This document shows, one piece after another, positions 5,600-58,376 of a DNA stretch of 64,000 nt. A program made the position numbers and the translations under genes. Positions within the stretch are counted from its first letter, which is position 1, and every line of letters begins with the position of its first letter. The stretch spans positions 1 through 64,000 of the forward strand of contig SVPR01000011.1 in the NCBI GenBank assembly GCA_015065785.1, read 5' to 3'. This stretch comes from Oscillospiraceae bacterium. Its GTDB lineage: Bacteria > Bacillota > Clostridia > Oscillospirales > Acutalibacteraceae. The notes beneath the pieces were generated by a model. That model did no database searches. It saw nothing but the letters and a program-made list of their open reading frames with translations, and was not told the origin of the DNA.

Positions 5600-5791
5600 G
5601 TTGAAAATTGAGAATTGAAAATTGAAAATTTCGGAACTGCGTTAGCATTATAATTGAATAAAAAATAGTTTATCCTATCATTTAAAGTTGGTTTTAGTAT
5701 CAACTAAAAATGATAGGATGATTTTTTGCAATTTTATAATCGGCTTTGCCCCTTAATTTTCAATTTTCAATTCTCAATTTTTAATTTCATT
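5600..5791. repeat. Family-1 palindromic repeat (complete)
   Basis: Left array TTGAAAA-type with period 7 (5600-5630), junction TTTCGG, hairpin AAC-TGC-GTT (5635-5643), then CATTATAAT. The core palindrome pairs TATCCTATCATTTAAAGTTG (5671-5690) with CAACTAAAAATGATAGGAT (5701-5719). On the right lie TATAAT, hairpin GGC-TTT-GCC (5752-5760) and the inverted array TTTTCAA (5763-5790). It lies between two convergent genes, so the core could serve as a bidirectional terminator. Confidence 0.85.
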
Positions 5792-6766
5792 TAATATTTC
5801 AACAAGCTTCTCAGCAATAATTTTATGCCCATCTCTGTCCGGGTGGAGTGGCTCAAGGGGTACCCAACCATCTGAATCTATAAAGAAAATATCTGTGTTG
5901 TTCTTTTTGTTGTAGTCCTTAATAAACTCACCTAATTCAGTGTGGAATGCGCCACAAAATGCAGAAAGTGAAATTATTTGAGATTCCGGATTCATTTTAA
6001 TAATTACATCCAAAAGCTTTTCGTAATTATCAAGATAATTTTCTAAGCTGCCACCACGGTCATTTGCACCGTGGTTAATTACTATATAATCACTATTTTT
6101 GTGAGTGATAGGGGAATTATGGAAATTATACGGATATGCTTCATCTGCTTTAGGCACAGCACCCATTCCCGAATGTGTAACACCTACTGCACCGTAGCCC
6201 ATAAATATTGGTCGTAAATTAAGCTTTTCAGCAGTAAGCCACGCATAAGTTGCAGTAACATCATCCTGATAAACTCTGTTGAATTGTCCGATAGAAAATT
6301 TATTTTCGCCGCTTTCGCCGTAATAATTTTCGTCAGTCAAAACGCCCTCTGTGATTGAGTCACCGACAAATTCAATGGTCTTTCTTGTATCTTCGTCAAT
6401 TTTAATTGGCGTGTCAGTAATAACACCGCAAAAAGAAATTTTGCTTTCAAGAGGACTGAACCATCGTCTGAATTCTTCAACTGTGCCTTTAAAAATAATT
6501 TTAACAGTATGCTCTTTATCTTCTTTTGTACGGATTTTTAAATAATTGTCAACCATTGCTTCGGTGTAATCGCCATTATCAATCTGCACCCAGAGATGCG
6601 GAAAAGGGTATTTGTTGTTATCGCAATTAAAAAGTGCAGTAGCAAGTGTACCTTTGAAGCAGAATTCTATGTAGCTACCTGTTGCAGTAGCAGTTGCGTA
6701 TTCTTTATTTTGTTTGTCCCATCTGCCTGTAAGACGGATTGACTCGTGGTTATAAGAAATTTTCAT
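5774..6766 (-). CDS. SGNH/GDSL-family carbohydrate esterase (CE2-like)
   Basis: A 330-residue protein without a signal peptide. The N-terminal 120 residues look like a beta-sandwich carbohydrate-binding region. The rest is an SGNH hydrolase: block I FVGDSITEG with the nucleophile Ser, block III INHGANDRG, and block V HPDRDGH with the catalytic Asp-x-x-His. This two-domain order is that of CE2 acetyl-xylan esterases, so removal of acetyl groups from plant glycans is the likely role; substrate is inferred. AAAGGA lies 9 bases before the ATG at 6766; the in-frame TTG at 6775 is less likely. A divergent promoter lies upstream. Confidence 0.85.
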   Translation of the reverse strand: MKISYNHESIRLTGRWDKQNKEYATATATGSYIEFCFKGTLATALFNCDNNKYPFPHLWVQIDNGDYTEAMVDNYLKIRTKEDKEHTVKIIFKGTVEEFRRWFSPLESKISFCGVITDTPIKIDEDTRKTIEFVGDSITEGVLTDENYYGESGENKFSIGQFNRVYQDDVTATYAWLTAEKLNLRPIFMGYGAVGVTHSGMGAVPKADEAYPYNFHNSPITHKNSDYIVINHGANDRGGSLENYLDNYEKLLDVIIKMNPESQIISLSAFCGAFHTELGEFIKDYNKKNNTDIFFIDSDGWVPLEPLHPDRDGHKIIAEKLVEILNEIKN

Positions 6767-6799
6767 ATTTTCCAATCCTTTATTAAAAACTATAAGATT

Positions 6800-6827
6800 A
6801 TTATAACTTTCAATATTTTAAAGTCAA
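6800..6827 (-). promoter_or_regulatory. Promoter of the SGNH esterase gene
   Basis: On the minus strand TTGACT, 16-base spacer, TATAAT. It sits back to back with the plus-strand promoter of the HelD-like gene. Confidence 0.65.
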
Positions 6828-6830
6828 CAC

Positions 6831-6859
6831 TTGATAGAGTGTTTTTCTTATGTTATAAT
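6831..6859 (+). promoter_or_regulatory. Promoter of the HelD-like gene
   Basis: TTGATA (6831-6836), 17-base spacer, TATAAT (6854-6859), about 37 bases before the binding site of the next gene. Confidence 0.7.
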
Positions 6860-6902
6860 TTATTTTTGGTAAAACTACATTTTTGAAAGGAAATTTCTTT
6901 AA

Positions 6903-9011
6903 ATGTTTTCAAAAGAAGAACAACAAGAACAGCTTTATTTTGAAAAAGTCAAAGGCTTTTTAAATAATGAAATAATCCGTCTTAAAGACCTTATTGTAAC
7001 CTACAAGGCACGGGTTAAGGCTCAGGGTGAAAAGTTTAATGAAGACAATCCTAATGGCGGAATGTATGCAGGCGTGGAGCTTACTGAGCTTCATTATGAA
7101 ATGGAGAATCAGATGCAGGAAACACTGAATGCGAGTTATGACATTCAGTTTTACGAAAAGCTTAAAAATGCACCGTATTTTGCAAGAGTTGACTTTACGC
7201 CAAACAGAACAGGCAGAAAGCAAGAAATATATATCGGTCTTAAAACTCTTCAGGAGCACGACACATATAACACCTTGGTTTGTGACTGGCGTGCACCTAT
7301 AGCTTCGCTTTTCTATGATGATTTTAATTCGAGTGATGCTTTTTTTAATGCGCCGTCAGGAGTAATTGAGGGTAAGCTTTCATTAAAAAGGCAATACAAA
7401 TTCAGGAATGGTGAATTAAAGGGCTTTGTTAACAGCGATATTAAAATTGATGATGATATTTTAAGAGATGTGCTTTCCGAAAACAGTCACGAGCATTTAA
7501 GAGTTATTGTTAATTCGATTCAGCGAGAGCAAAATAAAGCAATAAGATATTCTGACAGTAAAAACTTAATAGTTTATGGCCCTGCCGGTAGTGGTAAAAC
7601 CTCTGTCGGCTTCCACAGAATTGCATATCTTCTTTACAGAAACAGAAAAGAGCTTGTTTCTTCTGAAATAGTTATGTTTTCTAATAACGATATTTTTTCA
7701 AGCTATGTTGCGGATATCATTCCGGAGCTTGGCGAAATGCCAATTAACTATTCAAGCTTTTATAATATTTTTAAAGCGGAGCTTCCTGAATATTCTATAT
7801 TGGATTACTATGATTTGGCAAACAGCTTAATAGTAGGAAATGAAGAGCTTAAAAAGAGTGCAGTTTTAAAATATGATGAAAAATTCATTGATTTCTTAAA
7901 GGTACACGCAGAAAATTATCTGCCAACATTTGATGATGTAAAATTATTTGATGGAATTATAATTTCTAAAGATGAGATTTTAGACAGATATGTTTCAGAT
8001 AGTGAAAATGCACCATCTGCAAGGGCAGAAAGGCTTGTAAGCTTTGTGAATGGCGTAATAGATGAATATTTTATTGAGCATAGAGAAAAAATCTATGAAA
8101 CAATTGATTTGGAATCATCTATTGATGAAGACACAAGTAAGCTTTATAAAATGAAGCGCAGAGAGCTAAAGCACAATGTCGGCAGGAGTCTAAGAGCCTC
8201 TGTTTTAGCAGACCCTACAAGGATTTATCTTGATATTTTAGAAAAATATGTGAATATGGTCGGCGGTTTTGAAGATGTTTTAAAAGCTACCAGAGAAAAA
8301 ATAGAAAAGAATATTTTAGATTTCCCTGATGCTTTAGGAATTATCTTTACAAAGTGCGTAATGGGCGAAAGTGCTGTTTTAAATGGTGTAAAGCACATTT
8401 TAATTGACGAAGCACAAGACCTGAGTCTTTTACAGCACAGAATTATTTTAACAATGTTCCCGAAAGCAAAATACACACTTTTGTTAGACACAAACCAGGC
8501 AATTAACCCCGAAATAAATTCTGTGAGTGTAGAAAAATTAGCAGAGCTTTATAGTGCAAATTCACTTTATCTTAACAGAAGCTACCGTTCAACAGAAGAA
8601 ATCAACAAGCTGGCTATTTCGCTTTTACCTCAGGAAAAAGCTTATGATATTTTCTCGAGAAACGGTGACGAGGTGCAATATAAAGCAGGTGAAAATGCTT
8701 TGAAGGAAGAAATTAAAAGCTTAAGTGAAAAAAGCTCATCTGTTGCAATTATTACAAAGACAATAGAAGAGGCACGAGAGCTTCATAAGGCTTTAATTAA
8801 AGATTTTCCTGATATTCGTCTTTGTGATAATAAATCCTGCGTGTTAAGCGAAGCGCCAATAATTATGCCTTTAGTTTTAACAAAGGGTCTTGAATTTGAC
8901 AGCGTAATAGTGTTTAATAAGGGTAAAGGCTTTATGGGTGAACAAAACAAACCATATCTTTATATGGCAGTCACAAGAGCGTTACACAGATTAAGCATTA
9001 TAGAATTATAA
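6903..9011 (+). CDS. HelD-like RNA polymerase-recycling ATPase (UvrD-like helicase fold)
   Basis: A 702-residue superfamily 1 ATPase. It has an N-terminal coiled-coil arm (EEQQEQLYFEKVKGFLNNEI), Walker A GPAGSGKTS near residue 227, Walker B HILIDEAQD near residue 500 and the C-terminal motif VAVTRALHRL. The long N-terminal region before Walker A, with DWRAPIASLFY, fits HelD, which removes stalled RNA polymerase from DNA, better than UvrD or PcrA. Start ATG 6903 has AAAGGAAA upstream. The next gene starts 22 bases after the stop and is probably co-transcribed. Function is inferred from the family. Confidence 0.88.
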   Translation: MFSKEEQQEQLYFEKVKGFLNNEIIRLKDLIVTYKARVKAQGEKFNEDNPNGGMYAGVELTELHYEMENQMQETLNASYDIQFYEKLKNAPYFARVDFTPNRTGRKQEIYIGLKTLQEHDTYNTLVCDWRAPIASLFYDDFNSSDAFFNAPSGVIEGKLSLKRQYKFRNGELKGFVNSDIKIDDDILRDVLSENSHEHLRVIVNSIQREQNKAIRYSDSKNLIVYGPAGSGKTSVGFHRIAYLLYRNRKELVSSEIVMFSNNDIFSSYVADIIPELGEMPINYSSFYNIFKAELPEYSILDYYDLANSLIVGNEELKKSAVLKYDEKFIDFLKVHAENYLPTFDDVKLFDGIIISKDEILDRYVSDSENAPSARAERLVSFVNGVIDEYFIEHREKIYETIDLESSIDEDTSKLYKMKRRELKHNVGRSLRASVLADPTRIYLDILEKYVNMVGGFEDVLKATREKIEKNILDFPDALGIIFTKCVMGESAVLNGVKHILIDEAQDLSLLQHRIILTMFPKAKYTLLLDTNQAINPEINSVSVEKLAELYSANSLYLNRSYRSTEEINKLAISLLPQEKAYDIFSRNGDEVQYKAGENALKEEIKSLSEKSSSVAIITKTIEEARELHKALIKDFPDIRLCDNKSCVLSEAPIIMPLVLTKGLEFDSVIVFNKGKGFMGEQNKPYLYMAVTRALHRLSIIEL

Positions 9012-9033
9012 TATTATAAGACAGGTGAAAAAT

Positions 9034-10398: not shown

Positions 10399-10925
10399 TA
10401 GACTTAAAACCGGTAACCGACGAAAGCTTTTCTTCTGTTTATAAAAAGCTTATTGATGCTTTCCCTTATGAAGAAAGACGCGATGAAGCTGACGAGAAAA
10501 AGTGCTTTTTAAAATCACAATTTAATTTTTGTGAGATTACTGATAACGGCGAGAGTGTCGGTCTGATTGCGTTCTGGGTTTTTAAGGAATTTCTGTTTGT
10601 TGAGCATATTGCAATAAATAAAGAAATCCGTGGAAAAGGCTACGGCTCAAAGACATTTGAATTGTTGAAATCGCAATATGAATTACCGATTATTTTAGAA
10701 GCAGAATCACCTGAAACCGAAATGCAAAAGAAAAGAATCAAGTTTTATGAAAATTTAGGTTTCAAAGTAAATTCTTACAGTTACACACAACCGTCATATC
10801 ATAATGGCGAAAGCGTACCGCTTTTAATTCTTAGTTTCCCGGAACTTCTTAGTGAAAGTGAGTTTGAGGAGTTTTTCAAAACAACAAGAAGATTTGTTTA
10901 TGAAGTGCTGAATGCTGAGTGCTGA
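10395..10925 (+). CDS. GNAT-family N-acetyltransferase
   Basis: A 176-residue protein with the GNAT acetyl-CoA motif A near residue 78 (IRGKGYGSKTFELL) and the C-terminal FYENLGFKV strand-helix. It would transfer an acetyl group to a small molecule or protein; the substrate is not evident. Its ATG overlaps the stop of the upstream gene. The last codons (VLNAEC, stop) are encoded by a 7-base repeat array (GTGCTGA units), so the original C terminus may have been replaced by repeat sequence. Confidence 0.82.
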   Translation: MIDLKPVTDESFSSVYKKLIDAFPYEERRDEADEKKCFLKSQFNFCEITDNGESVGLIAFWVFKEFLFVEHIAINKEIRGKGYGSKTFELLKSQYELPIILEAESPETEMQKKRIKFYENLGFKVNSYSYTQPSYHNGESVPLLILSFPELLSESEFEEFFKTTRRFVYEVLNAEC

Positions 10926-11075
10926 GTGCTGAATTTCGGAACTGCGTTGGCAATTATAATTCGGAATGCGTAATGCGTAATTCGGAATTGAAGGGTCTGC
11001 GACGCAATTATAATTAAATAACAAAAGATAAGTTCTATCATTTAAAGTTTATGTTAACTAAAAATGATAGAACTT
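10905..11075. repeat. Family-1 repeat, two nested left arms plus core
   Basis: First array GTGCTGA/ATGCTGA (10905-10932), TTTCGG, hairpin AAC-TGC-GTT (10940-10948), GGCAATTATAAT. A second, unrelated array AATGCGT/AATTCGG (10960-10988) is followed by GTC-TGC-GAC (10995-11003) and CAATTATAAT. The core pairs AAGTTCTATCATTTAAAGTT (11030-11049) with AACTAAAAATGATAGAACTT (11056-11075). The right arm is replaced by a family-2 element. Confidence 0.85.
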
Positions 11076-11083
11076 GTTGATTT

Positions 11084-11362
11084 TAGCAAAGCTATACCTT
11101 CTTTGAAAAGAAGGGGGACCATTCGTAACACAAATTATATTCCATAATATTTTTTAAAGCGTGTAGCAAAGTTATTTTCAAAATTCAAGTTAAAACGGAA
11201 TGGTGGAAAATTGATATAAAAATACGCTTTAGCGTACGGACACGAGGTTAATATTATCAATACCCCCAACCTCATTGCCTTGCACTACCGTGCATTTTAA
11301 TATCAATTCTCCACCACGCTTACGCGCGGTCCCCCTCTTTTTCAAACGAGGTCGAGCTTCGC
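11084..11362. repeat. Family-2 palindromic repeat (two inverted halves)
   Basis: Left half: CCTTCTTtgaAAAGAAGG, GGGACC, long-range stem ACCATTC/GGAATGGT, GAAAATTGATATAAAAAT, hairpin ACGC-TTTA-GCGT. The right half is the inverse: TGCACTACCGTGCA, TTTTAATATCAATTCTCC, stem ACCACGCTTACGCGCGGT, CCCCTC, TTTTTCAAACGAGG. Corresponding stems differ in sequence but remain paired. Together with the flanking family-1 cores, this fills the 511-base gap between the GNAT and XRE genes. Confidence 0.8.
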
Positions 11363-11374
11363 AATCATTAAAAT

Positions 11375-11422
11375 TATCCTATCATTTAGAGTTGAGTTAA
11401 TGTCAACTAAAAATGATAGGAT
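11375..11422. repeat. Family-1 core palindrome
   Basis: ATCCTATCATTTAGAGTTGA (11375-11394) pairs with TCAACTAAAAATGATAGGAT (11403-11422). No arrays adjoin it. It lies 15 bases past the stop of the minus-strand XRE gene and may terminate it. Confidence 0.8.
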
Positions 11423-11436
11423 TTGTTTTGAAGTGT

Positions 11437-11637
11437 TCATTCATCTATAAATATCATTATATCCTGAACCTTACAGTGTAAAATTTTACACAAATCATCA
11501 ATTGTAACTGTGCTTAAAGGTTTGTTGTGTTTTAATCTATCTAAAAGACTACGACTTATGTTGTAGTCTTTTATTAATTTATAAGTTGTCATATTATTCT
11601 TTTTTAGTGTTTCATAAAAAGGCTCAAATGAAATCAT
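11437..11637 (-). CDS. Small XRE/Cro-type DNA-binding protein
   Basis: A 66-residue protein that is almost only a helix-turn-helix: TTYKLIKDYNISRSLLDRLK followed by TVTIDDLCKILHCKVQDIM, typical of the stand-alone Cro/YozG-like group. AGGGGTGA precedes the ATG at 11637. It would bind DNA as a dimer; targets are unknown. It is divergently arranged with the small Cys-containing protein at 11770, sharing a 132-base upstream region. Confidence 0.85.
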   Translation of the reverse strand: MISFEPFYETLKKNNMTTYKLIKDYNISRSLLDRLKHNKPLSTVTIDDLCKILHCKVQDIMIFIDE

Positions 11638-11961: not shown

Positions 11962-11982
11962 TAATTGATTTCGGAGAGTGAA

Positions 11983-12228: not shown

Positions 12229-12237
12229 GCAGAAAAT

Positions 12238-12312
12238 ATCCTGTCACTTAAGTTTTTGAAAAACATTAAATGACAGGATTTCTGTTTCCTGTTTCCTGTT
12301 TCCTGCTTTCTG
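12238..12312. repeat. Family-1 repeat, variant core plus right array
   Basis: ATCCTGTCACTTAAGTTTTT pairs with AAACATTAAATGACAGGAT. Compared with the usual ATCCTATCA/TGATAGGAT, the A-T pair has become G-C on both arms, a compensatory change. Array TTCCTGT with period 7 follows (12284-12312). Confidence 0.8.
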
Positions 12313-12663: not shown

Positions 12664-12925
12664 TAATTGAAAATTGAAAGTTGAAAATTGAAAATTTCGG
12701 GGCTACGCCGTAATTATAATAATTGGTTATAACAATTAATTGGTTTGTTCATTTATGCTAATGACAAATAGTAAGAATTAAATATTAAGATAAAAAATTC
12801 TATCATTTTTAGTTTAGAGCAAACTTTAAATGATAGAATTTCTCATTTTTATTGATAATTAAATTATAATCAAACGCGAAGCGTTTCCGAAATTTTCAAT
12901 TTTCAACTTTCAATTTTCAATTAAA
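12664..12925. repeat. Family-1 palindromic repeat (complete)
   Basis: Left array ATTGAAA (12664-12692), TTTCGG, hairpin GGC-TAC-GCC (12701-12709), GTAATTATAAT. The core pairs AATTCTATCATTTTTAGTTT with AAACTTTAAATGATAGAATT (about 12796-12840). On the right, ATTATAATC, hairpin AAACGC-GAA-GCGTTT (12872-12886), CCGAAA and array TTTTCAA (12889-12923). It fills the 348-base gap before the LysRS stop codon. Confidence 0.88.
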
Positions 12926-22710: not shown

Positions 22711-24600
22711 ATGAAAAAAATTAACAATATGGTTGAGAATTCTGTTAAAGAGTATTCTCAGAGCTATATATCAGACAAAGAAAAGAATAAGCTGAAAAAA
22801 GATATTGTTGAAGCTGTTTCTGCAATAGTATTCCTTTTAGCAGGTTATATCTATGGCAAATTCTTCCCTAATCAACAAGTAATTCAAGGAATTATTTATT
22901 TAATAGGTGTTGCTATAATCGGTATTCCTGTATTTGTAACAGCTGTTAAAGGCTTTTTGCAAAAGGATATTAACTCATCAATGGAAATTTTAGTTTCTAT
23001 TGCAATTCTTGTTTCGGTTTTAGACGGTCAATATGTTTTAGCGGGATTTATTCCGATAATTTTAACACTCGTTCACTTTTTAGAAGAAAAGAGCATTATG
23101 GGTGGCCGAGATGCTATTGAGGGACTTAAAAAGCTTCAGGCAGATACTGCAATAATTCTCGTTGATGGTGAGGAAAAAGAAGTAGATGCAAAAGCCCTCA
23201 AAAAGGATGACTTGATTCTCGTGAAGCCGGGTATGGCACTGCCTATTGACGGTGTTGTTGTCAGCGGTATTTCTAATATGGACCAGAAGTCATTGACAGG
23301 TGAGGCACTTCCTAAAGAGGTTAAGGCAGGCGACTCTGTTTTTGCAGGTACTACCAACATTGACGGTCTTTTAACAGTAAAGGTAACAAAGCCATATTCT
23401 GACACATCGTTCCAAAAAATAGTTGAGCTTTTGGAGGGTGCAGAAAATATGACTGTGCCTGAAACTCAGATTGTTGACAAATTTATGGCTTATTACTTGC
23501 CGATTGTTTTAGTTGTTGCTACTTTAATGTGGCTTTTTACAAAGGATATAAGCAAGGCTATTGCAATTCTTGTTGTAAGCTGTCCGTGTGGATATATGTT
23601 AGTGTCTTCCGCACCGATTATTGCCGCATTGGCAAGTGCTACAAAACGCGGTATTCTTATTAAAAACCCGTCATTTATTGAAAAATTAACTGATGTTGAT
23701 TATTTTGTTTTTGATAAAACAGGTACAATTACAAACGGTACTCTTGAAGCGGTGGATTTCTTACTCGAAAATGCAGAGTCAAAAGAAGAGCTTATAAAAA
23801 CTGCTGCCTCAGTTGCACACGGCTCATTGCATCCGACTTCAAAATCAATTATGGCACTTTGCAGTGATATTGAATACGACAAGGATTTTGAAATTACTGA
23901 AATTGTCGGTAATGGCGTTAAGGGTGTAAAAAATGGCGACGAGGTTATAGTCGGTAATTCAAGATATATTTCTTCTTTAGGCCTGACTCTTCCCGAAAAC
24001 CAGGAGAATCAGGGTACATTAAGCTGGGTTGTTAAAAATAACGCTGTTTTAGGTGCTATTGTTTTCCGAGATGTTTTAAGAGAAGATGCAAACGACACCA
24101 TTAAAGATTTAAGAGCATTAGGCGTTAATGAGATAACAGTGCTTACAGGTGATAATGCTTTGGAAGCAAAGCGTGTAATGGCAGATGCCGACATTGACAC
24201 AATGTTCAGCGAGCTTTTACCTGAGCAAAAATTAGAAAAGGTGAGAGAGGCACAAAAAAATCACATTGTTGCAGTTGTTGGTGACGGCATAAACGACTCC
24301 CTGGCTCTTTCAGAAGCAGATGTCGGAATCGCAATGGGCGCTATGGGCTCAGACACGGCAATTCAGAGTGCAGATATTTCTCTTATGAATAACTCACTCG
24401 GCAATTTACCTTTTGTTATTGAGCTTTCAAGAAAAACAAAGGCTACAATTTATCAGAACATTATAATTGCTTTTTCTATAAGCTTTATTATGATGCTCCT
24501 CGCAGCAACAGGAATTGTAACACCTATTGTCGGTGCGTTTTTACATAATATAGGGGCGTTTGTGATTTTAATTAATAGTGGAAAGATAACAAAAAAATAA
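22711..24600 (+). CDS. Heavy-metal-type (P1B) P-type ATPase
   Basis: A 629-residue membrane transporter. Motifs in order: LTGEALPKE (actuator, about residue 195), SCPCGYML (metal-binding CPC helix, about 290), DKTGTITNG (phosphorylated Asp, about 335), SLHPTSKSI (P1B His-Pro), GDGINDSLAL (about 523). It uses ATP to move a transition metal, usually outward. There is no N-terminal metal-binding domain, and the CPC motif is followed by Gly-Tyr, not the usual Ala-Leu, so metal type is uncertain. Co-transcription with three SPFH genes is the striking part. A 7-base repeat array starts at the stop codon. Confidence 0.88.
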   Translation: MKKINNMVENSVKEYSQSYISDKEKNKLKKDIVEAVSAIVFLLAGYIYGKFFPNQQVIQGIIYLIGVAIIGIPVFVTAVKGFLQKDINSSMEILVSIAILVSVLDGQYVLAGFIPIILTLVHFLEEKSIMGGRDAIEGLKKLQADTAIILVDGEEKEVDAKALKKDDLILVKPGMALPIDGVVVSGISNMDQKSLTGEALPKEVKAGDSVFAGTTNIDGLLTVKVTKPYSDTSFQKIVELLEGAENMTVPETQIVDKFMAYYLPIVLVVATLMWLFTKDISKAIAILVVSCPCGYMLVSSAPIIAALASATKRGILIKNPSFIEKLTDVDYFVFDKTGTITNGTLEAVDFLLENAESKEELIKTAASVAHGSLHPTSKSIMALCSDIEYDKDFEITEIVGNGVKGVKNGDEVIVGNSRYISSLGLTLPENQENQGTLSWVVKNNAVLGAIVFRDVLREDANDTIKDLRALGVNEITVLTGDNALEAKRVMADADIDTMFSELLPEQKLEKVREAQKNHIVAVVGDGINDSLALSEADVGIAMGAMGSDTAIQSADISLMNNSLGNLPFVIELSRKTKATIYQNIIIAFSISFIMMLLAATGIVTPIVGAFLHNIGAFVILINSGKITKK

Positions 24601-24658
24601 TGCAGAATGCAGAGTGCAGAATGCAGAATTTCGGGACCTGCGGTCGGCGATTATAATG
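24601..24658. repeat. Family-1 repeat, left arm only
   Basis: Array TGCAGAA/TGCAGAG with period 7 begins at the base after the ATPase stop codon. TTTCGG, hairpin GACC-TGC-GGTC (24635-24645) and GGCGATTATAAT follow. No core or right arm. Confidence 0.85.
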
Positions 24659-33260: not shown

Positions 33261-33325
33261 CAGAAAGGGGGAAGTTTGTCAAGGGTTTGTTAGTAATTAT
33301 TTGTGGTGAAATTATTTTTATTTAA

Positions 33326-33530
33326 TGCAGGATGCAGAGTGCAGAATGCAGAATTTTGGAAGGCTTCGCCTTGATTATATTTTAATATGGATAAAAATAA
33401 CTACATTCTATCATTTTAAGTCAGTTTTATTACCAACTCAAAATGATAGAATGTAGCTTTCTCTTACAATATTATAATAGCGTCGCAGACCCTCAATTCT
33501 GCATTCTGCACTCTGCATTCTGCATTTTTC
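33326..33530. repeat. Family-1 palindromic repeat (complete, array GCAGAAT)
   Basis: Left array TGCAGAG/TGCAGAA (33326-33353), hairpin AAGGC-TTC-GCCTT (33360-33372), GATTATA. The core pairs CTACATTCTATCATTTT with AAAATGATAGAATGTAG (33401-33457). ATTATAATA, GTC-GCA-GAC (33482-33490) and the inverted array ATTCTGC/ACTCTGC (33497-33525) follow. It fills most of the 365-base gap between rplU and the pseudouridine synthase and touches the latter's stop codon. Confidence 0.9.
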
Positions 33531-44017: not shown

Positions 44018-44635
44018 ATGTCAAAGATTATTACAATCAGTCGTGAATTCGGTTCAGGTGGCAGAGAGTTAGGTAAGCGCCTTGCAGAAGAGCTTAACAT
44101 TCCTTGCTATGACTACCAGATAATCGAAATGGTTGCAGAAAAGCAGGGGCTTGATAAAGATTATGTTGAAAATGCTTCTGAAAGAGATATCAGAGCATTT
44201 TATCCGACAACTATCGGTGTAAGATTTTCTACCTCAACATTCTTTATTAACCAGTCAGTTGAGCTTTTTACAGAGCAGACAAAGGTTATAAGAGAGTTAG
44301 CAAGTAAAGGCGACTGCGTAATAGTTGGTCGCTGTGCTGATGTTCTTCTTAATAACGAAAATCTTTTAAATATTTTTGTTTACGCTGATAAAGAGTCAAA
44401 AATCAGGCGTTGTCAGGAAAGGGCAAAGCCGGGCGAAGCTCTCACTGAAAAAGATATTGAAAAGAAAATGAAAGAAATTGACAAGGGCAGAGCTGACCTC
44501 AGAAAAATGCTCGCAGATACACAATGGGGCGACAAAGAGGGCTATCATCTTATGATAAACACTTCCGGTAAAGAGATTAAATCATTAGTTACGGGACTTG
44601 CGGAGTATGCGAGAGCATATTTTGGCGAAGACTGA
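44018..44635 (+). CDS. Cytidylate-kinase-like protein
   Basis: A 205-residue P-loop kinase (ISREFGSGGRELGKRLAEEL; LID-like GRCADVLL and RRCQERAKPGE). It belongs to the cytidylate kinase-like family, which differs from CMK; the substrate is not established. GGGAGG lies 7 bases before the ATG. It may be in the same transcript as the MoxR gene, 70 bases upstream, although TATACAA-like promoter elements are possible in the gap. Confidence 0.85.
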   Translation: MSKIITISREFGSGGRELGKRLAEELNIPCYDYQIIEMVAEKQGLDKDYVENASERDIRAFYPTTIGVRFSTSTFFINQSVELFTEQTKVIRELASKGDCVIVGRCADVLLNNENLLNIFVYADKESKIRRCQERAKPGEALTEKDIEKKMKEIDKGRADLRKMLADTQWGDKEGYHLMINTSGKEIKSLVTGLAEYARAYFGED

Positions 44636-44644
44636 TGTCTTCGT

Positions 44645-44940
44645 TGAATGCTGAATGCTGAGTTTTTAATTGAAAATGGAAAATTGAAAATTGAAAATTT
44701 CGGGGCTACGCCGTAATTATAATAATTAGTTATAATGGTAAACCGACTTTTTCATTTATACTAATTACAAATTTTAAGACTTGAAAAAAGAATTCTATCA
44801 TTTTTAGTTTATATAAAACTTCAAATGATAGAATTTCTTGCTTTTATGGATAACTATTACAATTGCCGACCGCAGGTCCCACAATTTTCAATTTTCCATT
44901 TTCAATTCAAAATAGCATTCTGCATTCAGGAAACCCTGTT
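44645..44940. repeat. Family-1 palindromic repeat (complete, double arrays)
   Basis: Short array ATGCTGA (44647-44663), array ATTGAAA (44669-44699), TTTCGG, GGC-TAC-GCC (44704-44712), GTAATTATAAT. The core pairs AATTCTATCATTTTTAGTTT with AAACTTCAAATGATAGAATT (44790-44836). On the right are ATTGCC, GACC-GCA-GGTC (44868-44878), array TTTTCAA, then GCATTCTGCATTC and CCTGTTTCCTAATTCCTG remnants. The rest of the 568-base gap to gdhA is AT-rich promoter sequence. Confidence 0.88.
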
Positions 44941-45203
44941 TCCTAATTCCTGAACTGTGCATATAATAAATTGTGCATAAAAAGGTTGTTTCCCGTGAAA
45001 AAGTGAATAATAATTCACTGAAAAAGCTCGAAAATTGTAATATTTTGCCTATATTTTGCAAAAAAAGTTTGTTTTGTTCACACTTATTTTTATTCAATGT
45101 TACAATATTACAAAACTTAAGCAGAAATTTGTTGCAATTTGACTAAAACGGGTATAAAATAAGCGGGTAAAAAAATTTATTCTATTTTAAGGGGTAATTT
45201 GAA

Positions 45204-46548: not shown

Positions 46549-46930
46549 TCGGAATGCGGAATGCGTAATTCGGAATTGAAGCGAAATGCTGAGTGCTGAA
46601 TGCTGAATTTTTAATTGAAAATGGAAAATTGAAAATTGAAAATTTCGGAAGGCTTCGCCTTGATTATAATTATTAGTCAATAAAAACAACAAGTTCTATC
46701 ATTTTTAGTTTACGAAAAACTTTAAATGATAGAACTTTTTATTTTTAGTAAATATATAATTGCCAACGCAGTTCCGGAATTCTGCACTCAGCACTCAGCA
46801 CACAGCATTCTTTTAATTGCCAACGCAGTTCCGAAATTCTGCACTCAGCACTCAGCACTCAGCATTCTTTTAATTGCCGACCGCAGGTCCCGAAATTTTT
46901 AATTTTTAATTCTTAATTTTTAATTCAAAA
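46549..46930. repeat. Family-1 composite repeat with several nested arms
   Basis: The left side has three different arrays in series: AATGCGG/AATGCGT, ATGCTGA and ATTGAAA. Then TTTCGG, AAGGC-TTC-GCCTT (46649-46661), GATTATAAT and the core AAGTTCTATCATTTTTAG with CTTTAAATGATAGAACTT (46691-46737). The right side has three arms: AAC-GCA-GTT (46765-46773) plus array CACTCAG, AAC-GCA-GTT (46822-46830) plus the same array, GACC-GCA-GGTC (46879-46889) plus array TTTTTAA. Confidence 0.9.
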
Positions 46931-52436: not shown

Positions 52437-52482
52437 TTAAGCACTGAGCAATTTTAAAAAATTCAAAATTAAATAACTAATT

Positions 52483-52523
52483 AAAGGTTTGCCCCAATCT
52501 TCAGGGGTTGGGGCAAACACCTT
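52483..52523 (+). terminator. Terminator of the large dockerin-like gene
   Basis: AAAGG-TTTGCCCCAA pairs with TTGGGGCAAA-CACCTTT, followed by TTTATTTTT. Confidence 0.85.
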
Positions 52524-52580
52524 TGTTTATTTTTGCTAAAACTTTTTCTGTTGATTTTATAAAATTTTTGTGTTTTGCTA

Positions 52581-52609
52581 TTGAAATTCAGAAGATTTTA
52601 TATTAAAAT
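52581..52609 (+). promoter_or_regulatory. Promoter of the secreted-protein/peptide operon
   Basis: TTGAAA (52581-52586), 17-base spacer, TAAAAT (52604-52609), about 90 bases before the start codon. Confidence 0.65.
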
Positions 52610-52698
52610 AGAAAAATGTTGCAAAGGTTATCTTTAATTTTCGTGAAAATTTTTCACTTAAGGAAAGAGAATTAAATAGTCTTTAAGGAGGCAAACAA

Positions 52699-53823: not shown

Positions 53824-53842
53824 TTAAAAGGAGAAAATTAAC

Positions 53843-54952
53843 ATGAAAACATCTAAAAGAATTTTAGGTGTAATCCTTACACTTGTTATGCTTGTTAATG
53901 TTTTTGCTGTTAGCGTTTTTGCGGCTTATCCAGATGATTCTGCTTGTGCTCTTATCGTTACAACAGACAAAACAAACTATGCACCAGGCGATGAGGTTAT
54001 ACTTACAATTTCTACAAAAGCGACATCTGAAGTAGGTCCTATGCTTCTTACAGGTCAATACGAGCTTGGTTACAACTCAGCTGGCTTAGAGCCATATGTA
54101 GAAGGTAACTATACTCTTGAAGGACACGGCTTTGCAGCAGACCCTTATTTCAGTGCAGCTTACGACTCTTCAATGTCACAGGTTATTTACAGTGAAACAA
54201 CAATCGCTAACGGTGGTACTGTTACTGCTGATATGGGTTGGGATGAAGTTATCCTTTATTGTGTAGCTGATAACAACTCTATTGATAAGGATTGTGCTAA
54301 TGAAGCAGCTACTCTCTTCACTGTAAAAATGAAGATTCCTGCAGATGCTCAAGATGGCACATACACAATCGGTTTCAACCGCGATGGTTATGAAACTAAC
54401 TACACAGCATATGCAACAGACCGTAACACAGGTGGTCTTTACGGTAATGATGGTTCAGCTTATGGCAAAACTTATTTATATGATTTTGGTGTAGCTACTT
54501 ATACTGTTGGTAATTCTGCTCCAGCTCCAACTGTTACAGTTGATAACATTTCAACTCAGGTTCAATGGCAGAGCAAAGATGCTGGTCTTATGAGAGTTGC
54601 TTTCCGTGGTAACATCAAGGGCTATACTCCATCATTTGCTACAGGTTCAACAACAGAAATCGCTGACATTACAGAAATGGGTGTTGTTTACTCAAAGAGC
54701 AACGCTAACCCAACTGTTGGTGGCGCTAACTGTACAGCTGCTCCTGCTTGGACAATTTACGACTTCACAACAGGTGGTTATTTCTTCCGCGCAGTTGTTG
54801 GCAATTATCCTTATGATAATGGCGAAACACTTTACGCAAACGCATACATCGTTATTAACGGCCAGACAATCACAGCTGCAAATGGTGCAACTCAGACAAC
54901 AGGTGCTGCTGAATACGCAAGAGCAGTTGCTCTCGGCATGGCTGCGAAATAA
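53843..54952 (+). CDS. Secreted cohesin-like protein
   Basis: A 369-residue protein with a signal peptide (ILGVILTLVMLVNVFAVSVF). Residues 35-225 resemble a cohesin fold (TDKTNYAPGDEVILTISTKA, ... LFTVKMKIPADAQDGTYTIG). The C-terminal 130 residues form another beta-rich region without a recognised family. The stop codon is 2 bases before the first short peptide gene, so translation is probably coupled. Codon bias is strong. It may be the partner for the dockerin-like ends of the two upstream proteins. Confidence 0.75.
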   Translation: MKTSKRILGVILTLVMLVNVFAVSVFAAYPDDSACALIVTTDKTNYAPGDEVILTISTKATSEVGPMLLTGQYELGYNSAGLEPYVEGNYTLEGHGFAADPYFSAAYDSSMSQVIYSETTIANGGTVTADMGWDEVILYCVADNNSIDKDCANEAATLFTVKMKIPADAQDGTYTIGFNRDGYETNYTAYATDRNTGGLYGNDGSAYGKTYLYDFGVATYTVGNSAPAPTVTVDNISTQVQWQSKDAGLMRVAFRGNIKGYTPSFATGSTTEIADITEMGVVYSKSNANPTVGGANCTAAPAWTIYDFTTGGYFFRAVVGNYPYDNGETLYANAYIVINGQTITAANGATQTTGAAEYARAVALGMAAK

Positions 54953-54954
54953 TT

Positions 54955-55113
54955 ATGATGAACAAATATATTTCACCAGAATTAAAGCTTATTGAATTTG
55001 ATTTGCTCGATGTTTTAACTAACTCTTCAGTTGTTACAACAGCCCCCGGTGGTAGCATCAATATTGGTGGCTCCGGCGGAGACGGGTACATTGATTTCGA
55101 TGATATTCTGTGA
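54955..55113 (+). CDS. Short peptide with YxxPxL leader, candidate RiPP-like precursor
   Basis: A 52-residue peptide beginning MMNKYISPELKLIEFDLLDV. The YISPEL segment matches the YxxPxL recognition motif of lasso-peptide leaders. After DVLTNS the sequence changes to VVTTAPGGSINIGGSGGDG and ends in an acidic YIDFDDIL. There is no signal peptide and no Cys. It starts 2 bases after a secreted-protein gene. The next gene encodes a peptide with the same first half. A separate operon 1.2-4 kb downstream encodes an RRE protein, a kinase and a protease. Confidence 0.7.
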   Translation: MMNKYISPELKLIEFDLLDVLTNSSVVTTAPGGSINIGGSGGDGYIDFDDIL

Positions 55114-55143
55114 TAAATATAATCTTGAAAGGAGAAATAACTC

Positions 55144-55257
55144 ATGGTTAATTACACAAAACCTGAACTCGAAATTACAGAGTTCGAATTAGTTGATGTT
55201 CTTACTATCTCCATTCAAACTGACGGTCCTGATGCTGAATACGGCGATTGGTATTGA
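55144..55257 (+). CDS. Second short peptide with YxxPxL leader, candidate RiPP-like precursor
   Basis: A 37-residue peptide with AAAGGAGA 8 bases upstream. Its first half (NYTKPELEITEFELVDVLT) aligns without gaps with that of the preceding peptide (KYISPELKLIEFDLLDVLT), while the second half (ISIQTDGPDAEYGDWY) is unrelated. This conserved-leader, variable-end arrangement is typical of modified-peptide precursors. The operon ends at the terminator at 55291. Confidence 0.7.
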   Translation: MVNYTKPELEITEFELVDVLTISIQTDGPDAEYGDWY

Positions 55258-55290
55258 TTGAGAAGTAGGGAATAAACAGATCCCTTTACG

Positions 55291-55321
55291 GCCTGCTACA
55301 TTCGTGTAGCAGGCTTTTGTT
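55291..55321 (+). terminator. Terminator of the secreted-protein/peptide operon
   Basis: GCCTGCTACA, loop TTCG, TGTAGCAGGC, then TTTTGTTTT. A second small stem TTTTGCC-GTCA-GGCAAAA follows at 55321-55338. Confidence 0.92.
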
Positions 55322-55388
55322 TTGCCGTCAGGCAAAACCTTTTATTTTTAACCTATTGAATTAGGGTGGGGATTATGTTAAAATAAAC

Positions 55389-55465
55389 TAAGAATTAAGT
55401 ATTAAGAATTGAGAATTTCGGGACCTGCGGTCGGCATTATAAGAAGTGCGACGCAATTATAATAT
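55389..55465. repeat. Family-1 repeat, left arm only
   Basis: Array AATTAAG/TATTAAG with period 7 (55385-55415), TTTCGG, GACC-TGC-GGTC (55422-55432), GGCATTATAA, then GTGCGACGCAATTATAAT. No core palindrome. Confidence 0.8.
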
Positions 55466-55480
55466 CGATGTATTAAATTG

Positions 55481-55566
55481 TAGCGAAGCCAGACCTCCTT
55501 TGAAAAGGAGGGGGACCGCGCGTAAGCGTGGTGGAGAATTGATATTAAAATGCACGCAAGTGCAAG
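55481..55566. repeat. Family-2 half-element upstream of the DUF559 gene
   Basis: AGACCTCCTTTGAAAAGGAG, GGGGACC, stem ACCGCGCGTAAGCGTGGT, GGAGAATTGATATTAAAA, hairpin GCAC-GCAA-GTGC. It ends just before the ribosome binding site of the DUF559 gene. Confidence 0.82.
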
Positions 55567-55578
55567 GAAGTGAATTAG

Positions 55579-56007
55579 TTGAATAATAATCATTTACCAA
55601 GGAATAAACAATTAACTGGTTTTGCTAAAGCAATGCGAAAAAATCCAACAGATGAAGAAAAGAAAATCTGGTATGGTTTATTAAGATATATAACCCCGAA
55701 ATTTCACAGACAAAAAATTATCGGAAATTATATTGCAGATTTTTATTGTCATAAATTAAAACTTGTTATAGAAATTGATGGTGGGCAGCATAATTCCGAT
55801 GAAAATTTAATATATGACAAAATTCGTACAGAGTATATGAATGAATTCGGTTACAAGGTATTAAGACTTTCAAATAATGATATAACTTACGATTTTAAAA
55901 ATGTTTCTGTTTATATATTAGATTATTGTAAAAATAAATGTAAGCAGTTAGGCTTGGATTTTGAGTTTAATCCCGAAAGGAAACTGAAAAGTAAAATAGA
56001 AGAATGA
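55579..56007 (+). CDS. DUF559 (Vsr-like) endonuclease-domain protein
   Basis: A 142-residue protein starting at TTG 55579, with AAGGAAG about 9 bases upstream. It has the DUF559 pattern: RKNPTDEEKKIWYGLL, FHRQKIIGNYIADFYCHKLK and LVIEIDGGQHN, where Asp, Glu and Gln/His would form a restriction-endonuclease-like (Vsr/PD-ExK) site. A DNA-nicking activity is likely from the fold but not proven. The gene is enclosed by family-2 repeats on both sides, suggesting that it travels with or mobilises them. Confidence 0.85.
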   Translation: MNNNHLPRNKQLTGFAKAMRKNPTDEEKKIWYGLLRYITPKFHRQKIIGNYIADFYCHKLKLVIEIDGGQHNSDENLIYDKIRTEYMNEFGYKVLRLSNNDITYDFKNVSVYILDYCKNKCKQLGLDFEFNPERKLKSKIEE

Positions 56008-56015
56008 GCTGAATT

Positions 56016-56317
56016 TTAGCGAAGCCGACCTTCTTTGAAAAGAAGGGGGACCATTCTTCACAGAAGTTCAATAAAATTATTAAATGTTTAAGCGAGTAGT
56101 AAATTTAATTAAATAATAAATTAAAACGGAATGGTGGAAAATTGATATTAAGATACGCTTTAGCGTAAGGCTCTTTATATAATAGTAAATTTCAAATGAA
56201 ATAAAAAACTTATTGTAATGGTGAGTTTTCGCCTTGCACTATCATGCATTCTAATATCAATTCTCCACCAAGCAGAGCTTGGTCCCCCTCCTTTTCAAAG
56301 GAGGTTTGGCTTCGCTC
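56016..56317. repeat. Family-2 palindromic repeat (two inverted halves)
   Basis: Left: GACCTTCTTTGAAAAGAAG, GGGGACC, ACCATTC with GGAATGGT, GAAAATTGATATTAAGAT, ACGC-TTTA-GCGT. Right, inverted: TGCACTATCATGCA, TAATATCAATTCTCC, ACCAAGC-AGA-GCTTGGT, CCCCCTCC, TTTTCAAAGGAGG. Stems differ from the other copies but stay paired. It fills the 340-base gap between the DUF559 and HprK-like genes. Confidence 0.85.
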
Positions 56318-56347
56318 ATGGCAACTTATAAATGAAAAGGAAAAAAT

Positions 56348-57046
56348 ATGAAATTAAAAGTCGCAGATTTAATCGTCGAAGTAACCCCAAAATATGAACT
56401 TTTGAAAACCCGTTCGGTTCCTTATATTTATAACGGAGAGAAAGAGCCGGACATTGTTATTCCGTTAAGCGAACAATTTTTTATTGACAGACAAAAAGAA
56501 AATCCGCATTTATCGCTTGATGAGTGTGAATATATTTTCACAGGCTCTTGCTTCTACACCGAAATTGTAAAATTCGACGGTGTAATGCTTCACGCATCTG
56601 CTGTGCAATATGAAAATTTTGCTTACCTCTTTTCTGCCGATTCAGGCACAGGCAAATCTACCCACACTCATTTGTGGCTTAAAAAATTCCCCGGTGCAGA
56701 AATTTTAAACGACGACAAACCCGCAATAAGATGTATAGATGGTAAATATTATGCTTTCGGCACACCCTGGAGTGGTAAATATGATGAAAGCGTTAACACA
56801 ATGACAGAAATTGCAGGAATAACTTTTCTTTCCCGTGGCGAAGCTAATGAAATTACAAGGGTTACAGGCGAAGATGTTATGATTGACTTTTTAAATCAGA
56901 CTGTACGCCCCGGTAAAAAAGATTATATGATTTCTTTTATGGAAACATTAGATAAAATTCTCAGTGATGTTCCTGTTTTCCGTCTGAAATGCAACATTTC
57001 ACCCGAAGCAGTTGAAACATCCTACAACGCAATGAAAAGGAGTTAA
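56348..57046 (+). CDS. HprK-related kinase
   Basis: A 232-residue protein with the P-loop of HPr kinase relatives (SADSGTGKSTHTHLW near residue 97) and the following LNDDKPAIR and FGTPWSGK segments. It lacks the N-terminal half of true HprK. Such short kinases occur in RiPP clusters; in paeninodin-type lasso clusters one phosphorylates the C-terminal Ser of the precursor. The gene is followed 2 bases later by a PqqD-like gene. AAAAGGA lies 7 bases before the ATG. Confidence 0.85.
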   Translation: MKLKVADLIVEVTPKYELLKTRSVPYIYNGEKEPDIVIPLSEQFFIDRQKENPHLSLDECEYIFTGSCFYTEIVKFDGVMLHASAVQYENFAYLFSADSGTGKSTHTHLWLKKFPGAEILNDDKPAIRCIDGKYYAFGTPWSGKYDESVNTMTEIAGITFLSRGEANEITRVTGEDVMIDFLNQTVRPGKKDYMISFMETLDKILSDVPVFRLKCNISPEAVETSYNAMKRS

Positions 57047-57048
57047 AA

Positions 57049-57318
57049 ATGAAGCTTAGTGAAAATTTTGTTTTAAAGACAATTGCAGGTGCAACAGTTG
57101 TAATGCCGGTAGGTGAAGCGGTGAGCAAGGTCAACGGAATGATTAAGCTTAACCCGACAGCAAAAATAATCTGGGAAGCACTTGAGGAAAATAAAGATTT
57201 TGACGGTATTTTAGAAGCAATGAAAAATAACTTTAAAGATGTTGATGAAGCAACACTCAAAGAAGATATAAATTATTTTTTAGACAGGCTTCGTAAATAC
57301 GAAATTTTAATTGATTGA
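57049..57318 (+). CDS. PqqD-like RRE (peptide-recognition) protein
   Basis: An 89-residue PqqD-family protein: FVLKTIAGATVVMPVGEAV forms the beta hairpin and LNPTAKIIWEALEENKDFD the winged-helix start. In PQQ, lasso and other RiPP systems this fold holds the precursor leader. AAGGAG lies 7 bases before the ATG. Because two peptides with YxxPxL leaders are encoded 2 kb upstream, this protein is the best candidate to bind them. Confidence 0.88.
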   Translation: MKLSENFVLKTIAGATVVMPVGEAVSKVNGMIKLNPTAKIIWEALEENKDFDGILEAMKNNFKDVDEATLKEDINYFLDRLRKYEILID

Positions 57319-57319
57319 T

Positions 57320-57787
57320 ATGAATAACAAGGTAACTATGCAAGAGCTTCTTCCTTTTATAGAAGAAGCTTTTAAGAATAATAAAACATTCACCATTCCG
57401 ATTACAGGAACAAGTATGCTCCCACTTTTAGTGCAGGGGCGGGATACTGTTACACTTAAAAAGTGTGAAGAGCCTCTTAAAAAAGGTGATTTGCCATTAT
57501 ACAGAAGAAACGACGGCACATTTGTGCTTCACCGAATTGTAGAGGTCAATTCTGACGGTAGTTTTACAATGTGTGGCGACAACCAATTTTTAAAAGAGCG
57601 TGGAATTACTTCTTCACAGATAATAGGCGTTGTTTCAGAAATCACCCGTGACGGTAAAACCTTTTCTGTAACCGATGAAAAATATCAGAAATATGTAAAA
57701 AGAGGACTTTCGCTTATAAATGTGCGGTATCCGTATAAGAGGTTGAGATATGCAGCTTCTAAGATTAAATTAAGAATTAAGAAATAG
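57320..57787 (+). CDS. S24/S26-family peptidase with Ser/His site (SipW/Sec11-like)
   Basis: A 155-residue protein. The Ser is in TGTSMLPLL and a His stands in place of the usual Lys in FVLHRIVEV, as in SipW and Sec11-type signal peptidases. GDLPLYRRNDG between them fits the family. Unlike signal peptidases it has no clear membrane segment at either end, so it may act in the cytoplasm. The ATG at 57320 starts one base after the PqqD-like stop; no separate binding site is visible, so coupled translation is likely. A role in leader removal is inference. Confidence 0.82.
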   Translation: MNNKVTMQELLPFIEEAFKNNKTFTIPITGTSMLPLLVQGRDTVTLKKCEEPLKKGDLPLYRRNDGTFVLHRIVEVNSDGSFTMCGDNQFLKERGITSSQIIGVVSEITRDGKTFSVTDEKYQKYVKRGLSLINVRYPYKRLRYAASKIKLRIKK

Positions 57788-58376
57788 GAAACAGGAAGCA
57801 GTCCTCCCTGAATTGAAAATTGAAAGTTGAAAATTGAAAATTGAGGAACGCTACGCGTTGATTATAATTGCTTTCGCTAAAAATAAACTTGATATATCAT
57901 TTAAGGTGAATTATATGAGAGAAAATATAATAGAAACTAAAAGTTTCAGCTTTGCAATCCGAGTTGTTAAATTACATAAGTATTTAACCGAAAACAAAAA
58001 AGAGTATGTTTTATCAAAGCAATTACTTCGTAGTGGAACAAGTATTGGTGCAAATGTTACAGAATCGCAAAACGCACAGAGTAATCTTGATTTTATAAAT
58101 AAAATGAGTATAGCTTTAAAAGAAACAAGTGAAACGAAATATTGGCTTCGTTTATTAAATGCAACAGATTATTTAACAGACGAAGAATCAAAATCAATAA
58201 TGGCAGATTGTATAGAAATAGAAAATATTTTGGTTAAGATAATAAAAACCTCAAAAGAAAAACAGGAACAAAAATAAAGTTAAAAAGAAAAGAAAGTTTT
58301 AAAAATTGCGAAGCTTTATAATCAAGTCCGCAGGACTTCCGAAATTTTCAATTTTCAACTTTCAATTTTCAATTAA
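57785..58376. repeat. Family-1 repeat enclosing a four-helix-bundle gene
   Basis: The left side has a short array GGAAACA/GGAAGCA at the stop codon of the peptidase gene, array ATTGAAA (57811-57843), hairpin AACGC-TAC-GCGTT (57847-57859), GATTATAAT, and TATATCATTTAAGGTG, which matches the left half of the core. The gene follows. The right side has TTATAATC, AAGTCC-GCA-GGACTT (58324-58338), CCGAAA and array TTTTCAA (58341-58373). The right core half is missing. Confidence 0.85.
57915..58277 (+). CDS. Four-helix-bundle protein (S23/bAvd-like)
   Basis: A 120-residue protein of the family first seen in 23S rRNA intervening sequences (FSFAIRVVKLHKYLTENKKE, LLRSGTSIGANVTESQNA, DFINKMSIALKETSETKYWL). 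Related proteins form ring-shaped pentamers and bind nucleic acid; bAvd works with reverse transcriptase in diversity-generating retroelements, but no such enzyme is visible here. The ATG at 57915 has AAGGTGA 5 bases upstream. Upstream in-frame codons lie within the repeat. The gene is placed exactly where other family-1 copies have only the loop of the core. Confidence 0.88.
   Translation: MRENIIETKSFSFAIRVVKLHKYLTENKKEYVLSKQLLRSGTSIGANVTESQNAQSNLDFINKMSIALKETSETKYWLRLLNATDYLTDEESKSIMADCIEIENILVKIIKTSKEKQEQK

Follow-up and report, generated by a model that had tools for sequence, protein, structure and literature searches.

Covarying triloop hairpins of an Oscillospiraceae genome as inner halves of the ends of small, probably mobile elements associated with PF05635 (S23) genes

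Small hairpins with three-base loops that lie between genes in the first 64,000 nucleotides of contig SVPR01000011.1 of an Oscillospiraceae bacterium (assembly GCA_015065785.1; this whole stretch is referred to as the window) were analyzed together with the rest of that genome (G000, 2.24 Mb, 83.6% complete) and with other bacterial genomes and plasmids. Each hairpin is the inner half of an element end and is not free-standing. One end, read inwards, consists of four to five heptamers, TTTCGG or a variant, the triloop hairpin and usually ATTATAAT, and two such ends face each other in inverted orientation, usually one of class I (TGC loop, then GGC) and one of class II, to give an element of ~0.19-0.6 kb. 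Most copies enclose only an AT-rich, terminator-like core hairpin, and two PF05635 (23S_rRNA_IVP / S23) genes of G000 lie between such ends. The architecture is repeated, its modules are exchanged at orthologous sites, and in other phyla, too, a PF05635 gene often has an inverted heptamer array on either side, with matching units. Taken as a whole, the evidence makes it probable that each hairpin forms the inner half of one end of a small mobile element in which the S23 protein has a role. We read these elements as mobile elements that resemble the intervening sequences (IVSs) of rRNA but lie outside rRNA, and as a source of unexplained cyanobacterial and other heptamer repeats.

An earlier note, made from the window alone, had placed the hairpins between TTTCGG and ATTATAAT at 17-20 sites. 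A self-complementary stem was confirmed at all 18 positions that it cited; the flanks were exact on both sides at seven of the 18 (5635, 10940, 12701, 12872, 24635, 44704 and 46649) and departed on one or both sides at the rest, for example as TTGAGG at 57847 and TTCCGG at 46765 in the outer flank, and as only AATTA at 46822 and 46879, ATTATAAG at 55422 and TTTATAAT at 58324 in the inner flank. A search with the pattern TTTCGGN{8,20}ATTATAAT over 60 genomes, G000 included, gave 114 matches in G000 (reversed control, 2), 26-33 in each of the same-genus genomes G001 (~82% complete), G002, G018 and G021 (control, 0-3), 0-17 in the remaining genomes of the genus, and 0-6 in other genera (controls, 0-5). 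Comparison of the window with Rfam at the gathering score returned four tRNAs only, with no family for the hairpin and no rRNA. The earlier note made no mention of the heptamer arrays that precede the hairpins, of the division into two hairpin classes, of the core hairpin that separates paired copies or of the gene that one copy carries.

In the examined sequence of G000, 107 modules were found, and two were dropped as chance matches inside genes. The core hairpin (CTATCATTT...AAATGATAG) lay within 330 bp of 76 of the remaining 105 modules, 63 of which also had an inverted partner; the 29 counted by regular expression as coreless single cassettes include some with a slightly changed core that the expression missed. 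The core pattern occurred 98 times in G000 and was present in 6 of the 60 genomes, all of the same genus (control, 0). Class I and class II ends were joined in 35 of 38 composites, compared with a mean of 19.1 and a maximum of 31 in 20,000 random pairings, where stem classes were assigned by list after the pairing had been noticed and some composites are orthologous to each other (L156, one of the sequence stretches compared and numbered L, is the window's own 46.6-kb copy). These 38 remained from 41 composites found by script after removal of L007, in which the script took an upstream tandem cassette, and of L020 and L177:1650, which had spurious hairpins. By eye, core orientation largely tracks the end classes, with L224 and L008 as exceptions. 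The heptamer arms were at least 80% identical between the two ends without gaps in 8 of 30 composites. Shuffled sequences fold much less well than three gene-less composites and the window's gene-bearing element (z values in Table 1). In the predicted fold of the gene-bearing element at 57.8 kb, a 32-bp outer stem, an inner stem formed by the two ATTATAAT regions and the two hairpins meet in a four-way junction; the three gene-less folds share the outer stem and the core, their junction is drawn differently, and the triloop hairpin appears as an arm only in the 33-kb copy.

Class I hairpins consist of GG, a 3-4-bp stem closed by a TGC loop, and then GGC or GC (stems AAC, GTC, GACC, GGCC, GTGC, GCAC, GACT and AACC), and class II hairpins have mostly longer stems, a loop of TGC, TAC, TTC, TTT or AAA, and then G or GT (stems AAGGC, AAGTCC, AACGC, AAACGC, GGC, GGCGC, GGCAC and others). 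A perfect stem of at least 3 bp begins 65 of 135 distinct inserts in heptamer context and 6.8% of shuffled inserts; some hairpins appear in this list a second time, displaced by one base, and such displaced readings make up many of the 70 stemless inserts. The stems covary. In class I, seven hairpins with 4-bp stems were 100% paired with all four pairs changing on both sides, and the covariation score was reached by none of 500 shuffles; in class II, ten stems, of which the inner 5 bp were used, were 100% paired with four of five pairs changing on both sides, and again no shuffle of 500 reached the score, the pair count and the pair-type count being not above those of shuffles. The sequences for both classes were chosen as examples of distinct stems, and independent events are far fewer than copies. 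Discrete stem types, including AAC.TGC.GTT, AAGTCC.TGC.GGACTT, GGC.TAC.GCC and GACC.TGC.GGTC, recur within G000, and the 17-20 copies are not 17-20 independent events because a few such types were copied many times. Stem pairing survives double changes, and therefore the folded strand matters, or did when the stems arose. The selection on structure proposed in the earlier note is supported in part, namely by the pairing kept through genuine double changes; the hairpin does not stand as a structured RNA of its own. Its alternative, that the copies are decay products of one insertion sequence end, was half borne out, in that the hairpins are element ends; no ordinary insertion sequence with such ends was found, PF01797 being the sole transposase family searched.

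For the association with PF05635, inverted repeats were scored between the 300-bp flanks of each gene, and a period of 7 was required. The sample of genus, family and order comprised 70 of 138 PF05635 matches, taken from most of the loci listed and from further stretches mainly of G000, G001, G002, G018, G021, G007 and G020; both flanks were available for 64 of the 70, and one gene found among the controls brought the number to 65. Inverted period-7 arrays were present on both sides of 24 of these 65 genes, and an inverted repeat of any kind, with the period condition dropped, at 32. Two of 94 control small open reading frames (ORFs) passed, both being PF05635 genes by position (L209 and L190), which leaves 0 of 92 (Fisher, 3e-11). 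Five further controls had inverted repeats without period 7: the DUF559 gene of the window, the ORFs at what appear to be orthologous sites in L191 and L192, an ORF in L176 and another next to the RAYT of L204. From plasmids, tblastn gave 25 records (11 from Nostoc), of which 24 were analyzed and H20 was left out; the arrays were found at 22 of the 24 genes and at none of 56 control coding sequences, which were taken from 49-kb stretches of two of these plasmids and included one with a strong repeat that lacked period 7. The two plasmid misses were L336, a Nostoc locus with a perfect 40-nt inverted repeat bearing a hairpin (hairpin by eye), and L345 (score 12, period 7). The passing loci have hosts in Cyanobacteriota, Bacteroidota, Spirochaetota, Chloroflexota and Bacillota, among others; the 24 plasmids are not independent, because many are related Nostoc plasmids. 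In the phylum sample (27 of 44 PF05635 matches outside G000 and G049), 16 of 27 genes passed and 19 had any inverted repeat; the misses included two matches below the Pfam cut-off and two repeats with period 11. Two copies in one genome of this sample (L365 and L376) had identical flanking repeats. The heptamer-array link is partner-specific: swapping left and right flanks between genes removed most of the signal, with 11 of 780 swapped pairs passing in the first sample, 9 of 296 within genomes, 32 of 288 for plasmids and 0 of 216 for the phylum sample. In phage records, tblastn matches to the PF05635 protein were obtained in 2 of 50,697. Among the top-ranked open-licence literature matches, none was found that connects PF05635 genes with heptamer arrays outside rRNA.

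Comparison of orthologous sites showed exchange of modules. At 5594-5773 of the window, G021, G018, G001 and G002 all have the composite. The G021 copy is near-identical, those of G018, G001 and G002 have an exchanged hairpin, exchanged heptamers or an exchanged core, and a 37-bp stretch takes the place of the composite in G015. At 57787-58394, compared by eye, G000 has the gene-bearing insert, G018 and G021 have heptamers only, without this insert, G001 carries a single end that adjoins another repeat, the composite in G002 is a different one, and G015 has nothing. The second PF05635 gene of G000 with such ends (G000:C10:109425; class II and class I) lies in an insert absent from G015; other composites occur at this gene end in G001 and G018, the core alone in G002, and the contig of G021 ends there. 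In three Nostoc plasmids, an element lies inside a cytosine methyltransferase frame that is whole in three others, and ~0.3 kb of the gene is missing there; at a cas2-cas1 junction, two plasmids carry an element that one other lacks, and the cas1 end differs. Judged from these comparisons, the Nostoc plasmid sites look like replacement rather than insertion with duplication, later deletion being the alternative.

Placement relative to genes was determined from crude ORF calls, with 6 of 107 modules inside called ORFs and 101 modules classified. The observed counts were 43 convergent, 54 co-directional, 2 divergent and 2 without a neighbor; the heptamer side met a gene 3′ end in 69 of 100, at a median of 58 bp from the stop codon. 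The core hairpin has a mean of -21 kcal/mol, at least five of the nine bases after its stem are T on 55 of 64 strands (observed counts), and 23 of 32 distinct cores resemble a terminator on each strand. A stable hairpin followed by a T tract, as in an intrinsic terminator, was provided by the core hairpin only.

From these observations we infer element mobility, a role of the S23 protein, cutting by RNase III and a terminator function, in the following scheme. In a single strand, the heptamer arms would pair into a ~32-bp stem, inside which the two ATTATAAT regions would pair, so that the two hairpins would protrude at the junction between the stems. The S23 protein may bind this folded strand and help host enzymes to copy the element to new sites, where target DNA would be replaced, not duplicated, on arrival. 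Gene-less copies would be non-autonomous forms and may survive at gene 3′ ends because their core would terminate transcription in both directions. RNase III would be expected to cut the long stem in a transcript, as it does with the intervening sequences of 23S rRNA.

Among the closest known systems are the 23S rRNA IVSs, for example those of Coxiella and Leptospira, which have in common with the window element a PF05635/S23 gene and terminal inverted repeats that form a long stem (here the ~32-bp arms). The Coxiella IVS also has heptamer repeats beside the S23 gene; its description includes 28-bp inverted repeats and three GACAGAT heptamers upstream, two in some strains, and IVSs are stated to replace small loops of 23S rRNA (PMC4990558). 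In contrast, the elements here lie between or inside protein genes and not in rRNA, their ends bear hairpins, and gene-less copies are represented by the 98 core patterns of G000. The window element itself lies between protein genes, outside any rRNA gene, and is therefore called IVS-like and not filed as an rRNA IVS. Intergenic heptamer arrays are also known as cyanobacterial short tandemly repeated repetitive (STRR) sequences, which are tandem intergenic heptamers with several unit types per genome, as are the arrays here, and as the TAACTGA repeats of Beggiatoaceae and GGGAATC repeats of Xanthomonas. The latter often form inverted pairs, and Xanthomonas and Nostoc heptamer repeats are described as "generally" not tied to mobile elements (PMC4692102); for the spread of TAACTGA repeats, "no mechanism is evident" is stated (MacGregor 2015, PMC4679880). 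Unlike the published repeats, for which these sources name no carrier, the arrays here are tied to PF05635 genes. A possible further likeness is offered by the small dispersed repeats (SDRs) of Nostoc, hairpins of 21-27 nt that show compensatory changes and lie within heptamer arrays. Elhai et al. reportedly described SDR4-6 in 2008 as very small hairpins of this kind, which heptamer arrays often enclose; by that description they may resemble the hairpins here, which covary and adjoin heptamers, but the lineage differs, and the present hairpins come in pairs, as the two end classes of a single element. Repetitive extragenic palindromic (REP) sequences and bacterial interspersed mosaic elements (BIMEs) with RAYT are likewise intergenic hairpins in many copies, whereas the RAYT-like genes of G000 and G018 adjoin another repeat. 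S23 proteins, for which at least two structures have been solved, share a four-helix-bundle fold with Avd of diversity-generating retroelements, and Avd-PF05635 homology has been noted (PMC10053308), but no RVT_1 reverse transcriptase was found in 18 of 22 genomes of the genus.

Several observations weigh against the proposed mobile element. The period-7 test was failed by 41 of the 65 PF05635 genes, 33 of the 65 had no inverted repeat by the score used, and 3 of the 8 assessable PF05635 genes of G000 had none either. The hairpins were found by script on both sides of only 8 of 70 PF05635 genes, with L275 doubtful, and are therefore regarded as a local elaboration. Many composites have unlike or shifted heptamers at the two ends. 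No clean target-site duplication, such as a MITE of a DDE insertion sequence would have, was seen at two Nostoc sites, and since G018 and G021 keep heptamers at 57.8 kb, loss of the gene there is as possible as its absence. Element movement is presumed from such comparisons, Foldseek ranks Avd below some unrelated bundles, and to our knowledge no activity has been assigned to S23 proteins. Coxiella S23p, according to PMC4990558, seems not to be made in vivo.

Some of the evidence can be accommodated by host functions. If the composites were two-way terminators or 3′-end stabilizers owned by the host, under selection for their RNA fold and spread by duplication and gene conversion, the convergent placement of 43 of 101 modules with almost no divergent ones, the AT-rich core with T tracts on both strands, the core alone at a gene end in G002, and the short stretch of G015, which by eye resembles a plain terminator hairpin at one site where relatives have a composite, would be expected. 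However, neither heptamer arms nor paired end classes are needed by a terminator, single cassettes without a core exist, hairpin-bearing ends flank a PF05635 gene, and the heptamer-PF05635 link extends beyond this genus, the only one in which the core was found among the 60 genomes; we regard this explanation as quite unlikely, and a plain terminator alone was rejected as leaving the gene-bearing copies unexplained. It is somewhat less doubtful, although still rather unlikely, that the PF05635 gene is a passenger and that another enzyme, of the host or of the element, moves the element or the heptamer arrays are insertion hot spots, as could be argued from heptamers that remain at gene-free sites, from arrays without hairpins in the window and from a family with no catalytic function known to us. 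Against this, the heptamer unit matches across one gene far more than between genes and the 57.8-kb arms are identical even in a variant third heptamer, and therefore the arms appear to travel with the element; moreover, the DUF559 gene carries a different repeat. The covariation, for its part, might have arisen without selection if template switching during replication re-perfected quasi-palindromes and copying then multiplied a few founder types. In general, template switching is favored by strong palindromes, the stem types are few and discrete with many copies, and 3-bp AAC.TGC.GTT stems would be weak alone; but the loop class, the GG before the stem and the GGC/G after it are nearly constant while stems vary, which suggests a recognized shape, and the pairing of class I with class II is left unexplained, so that we give this explanation only limited credence, as somewhat improbable.

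Two explanations by known enzymes were also considered. G000 and G018 each encode a RAYT-sized Y1 transposase (261 and 249 aa), by which the hairpins might be moved as REP-like sequences; however, these Y1 genes are flanked by a GGGGACGGTTC-type repeat and not by TTTCGG hairpins, and the cassette-rich G001 gave no PF01797 match. This is extremely unlikely, and was rejected on the flanks of six PF01797-matching loci, which lack these hairpins (two of the six ORFs look like other proteins). Retrotransposition by the reverse transcriptase of a diversity-generating retroelement or an intron, with the S23 protein as an Avd-like partner, is very unlikely; 4 of 22 genomes of the genus gave an RVT_1 match, G000, G001, G018, G020 and G007, some of which are incomplete, gave none, and dependence on a reverse transcriptase was rejected on the 18 genomes without a match (G000 83.6% and G001 82% complete).

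A mobile element carrying an S23 gene would bear on two families of sequences at once. We know of no source proposed for the heptameric repeats in decades of description, and of no function for S23 proteins; the association joins the two and makes both testable. A PF05635 gene between inverted heptamer arrays offers a source for repeats so far without explanation, and the link would shed light on the location of IVSs in rRNA and on the covariation of hairpin repeats. More tentatively, and in our judgment a little short of an even case, S23 (PF05635) may define a class of mobile elements in five phyla, with inverted heptamer arrays and, in some lineages, a hairpin four-way junction, of which IVSs, cyanobacterial heptamers and SDRs would be members or footprints; an S23 pentamer would recognize the folded single strand and promote copying without a DDE, Y1 or reverse transcriptase enzyme of its own.

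Table 1. Elements and related features of the window.
Positions	Strand	Feature	Details
5601..5787	.	Gene-less composite	Heptamer arm 5601-5628, TTTCGG 5629-5634, class I AAC.TGC.GTT from 5635; core hairpin; class II GGC.AAA.GCC (minus) 5742-5750, heptamer arm 5755-5787; fold -70.6 kcal/mol, z -12.7
10901..11085	+	Tandem class I cassettes, then core hairpin	AAC.TGC.GTT and GTC.TGC.GAC
12665..12922	.	Composite, long-core subtype	Ends GGC.TAC.GCC and AAACGC.TTC.GCGTTT, both class II; heptamer arms identical at 36/36 bases; fold z -12.9
24599..24657	+	Single class I cassette	GACC.TGC.GGTC, flanked by a co-directional gene pair; shared with G021
33324..33526	.	Composite, ACATTC-type core	Ends class II AAGGC.TTC.GCCTT and class I GTC.TGC.GAC; fold z -16.3
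44668..44907	.	Composite, long-core subtype	Ends GGC.TAC.GCC and GACC.TGC.GGTC; 12 further places in G000 at 89-95% identity
46613..46925	.	Composite	AAGGC.TTC.GCCTT end, core, three tandem class I cassettes opposite; 57-bp unit, tandem repeat 46757-46897
55389..55443	+	Single class I cassette	GACC.TGC.GGTC, adjoins DUF559 gene
57811..58374	.	Gene-bearing element	Identical 32-bp heptamer arms, PF05635 gene between; hairpins class II AACGC.TAC.GCGTT and AAGTCC.TGC.GGACTT; fold z -6.8
57903..58277	+	PF05635 (23S_rRNA_IVP / S23) ORF	Pfam match 57921-58235, E 6.7e-28, above Pfam cut-off; likely ATG 57915 (by eye)

The gene order that flanks the composite at 44600-45000 is in the opposite orientation in G018, G001 and G021, and a rearrangement breakpoint therefore lies at or near this element. 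Heptamer arrays without a TTTCGG hairpin were located in the window at 12282, 25669, 32049, 35523 and 35578. At 55400-56200, a DUF559 gene (55579-56007) lies between strong inverted repeats with hairpins of their own (CCTCCTTTGAAAAGGAGGGGGACC...GGTGGAG), and similar repeats flank ORFs in L191 and L192; the gene and its repeats are perhaps a parallel family of small elements. RAYT-like loci (L202, at G000:C9:31500-38500, L203, L204 and L207) have their own repeats, of the GGGGACGGTTC type and, in L207, of the TAGGGGCTAGGC type. Among PF05635 loci, the inverted arrays on the two sides of the genes of L364 and L366 repeat every 11 bases and not every 7, and in L274, L303 and L179 (4180-4560), which are PF05635 genes or sites, a tandem constant 8-9-mer (ATATCGCA or TATTTCACA) alternates with varying hairpins. 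The plasmid PF05635 genes of L326, L325, L323 and L340 lie inside defense operons, in the gaps of the gene pairs cas2/cas1, hsdS/hsdR and drmD/pglX.

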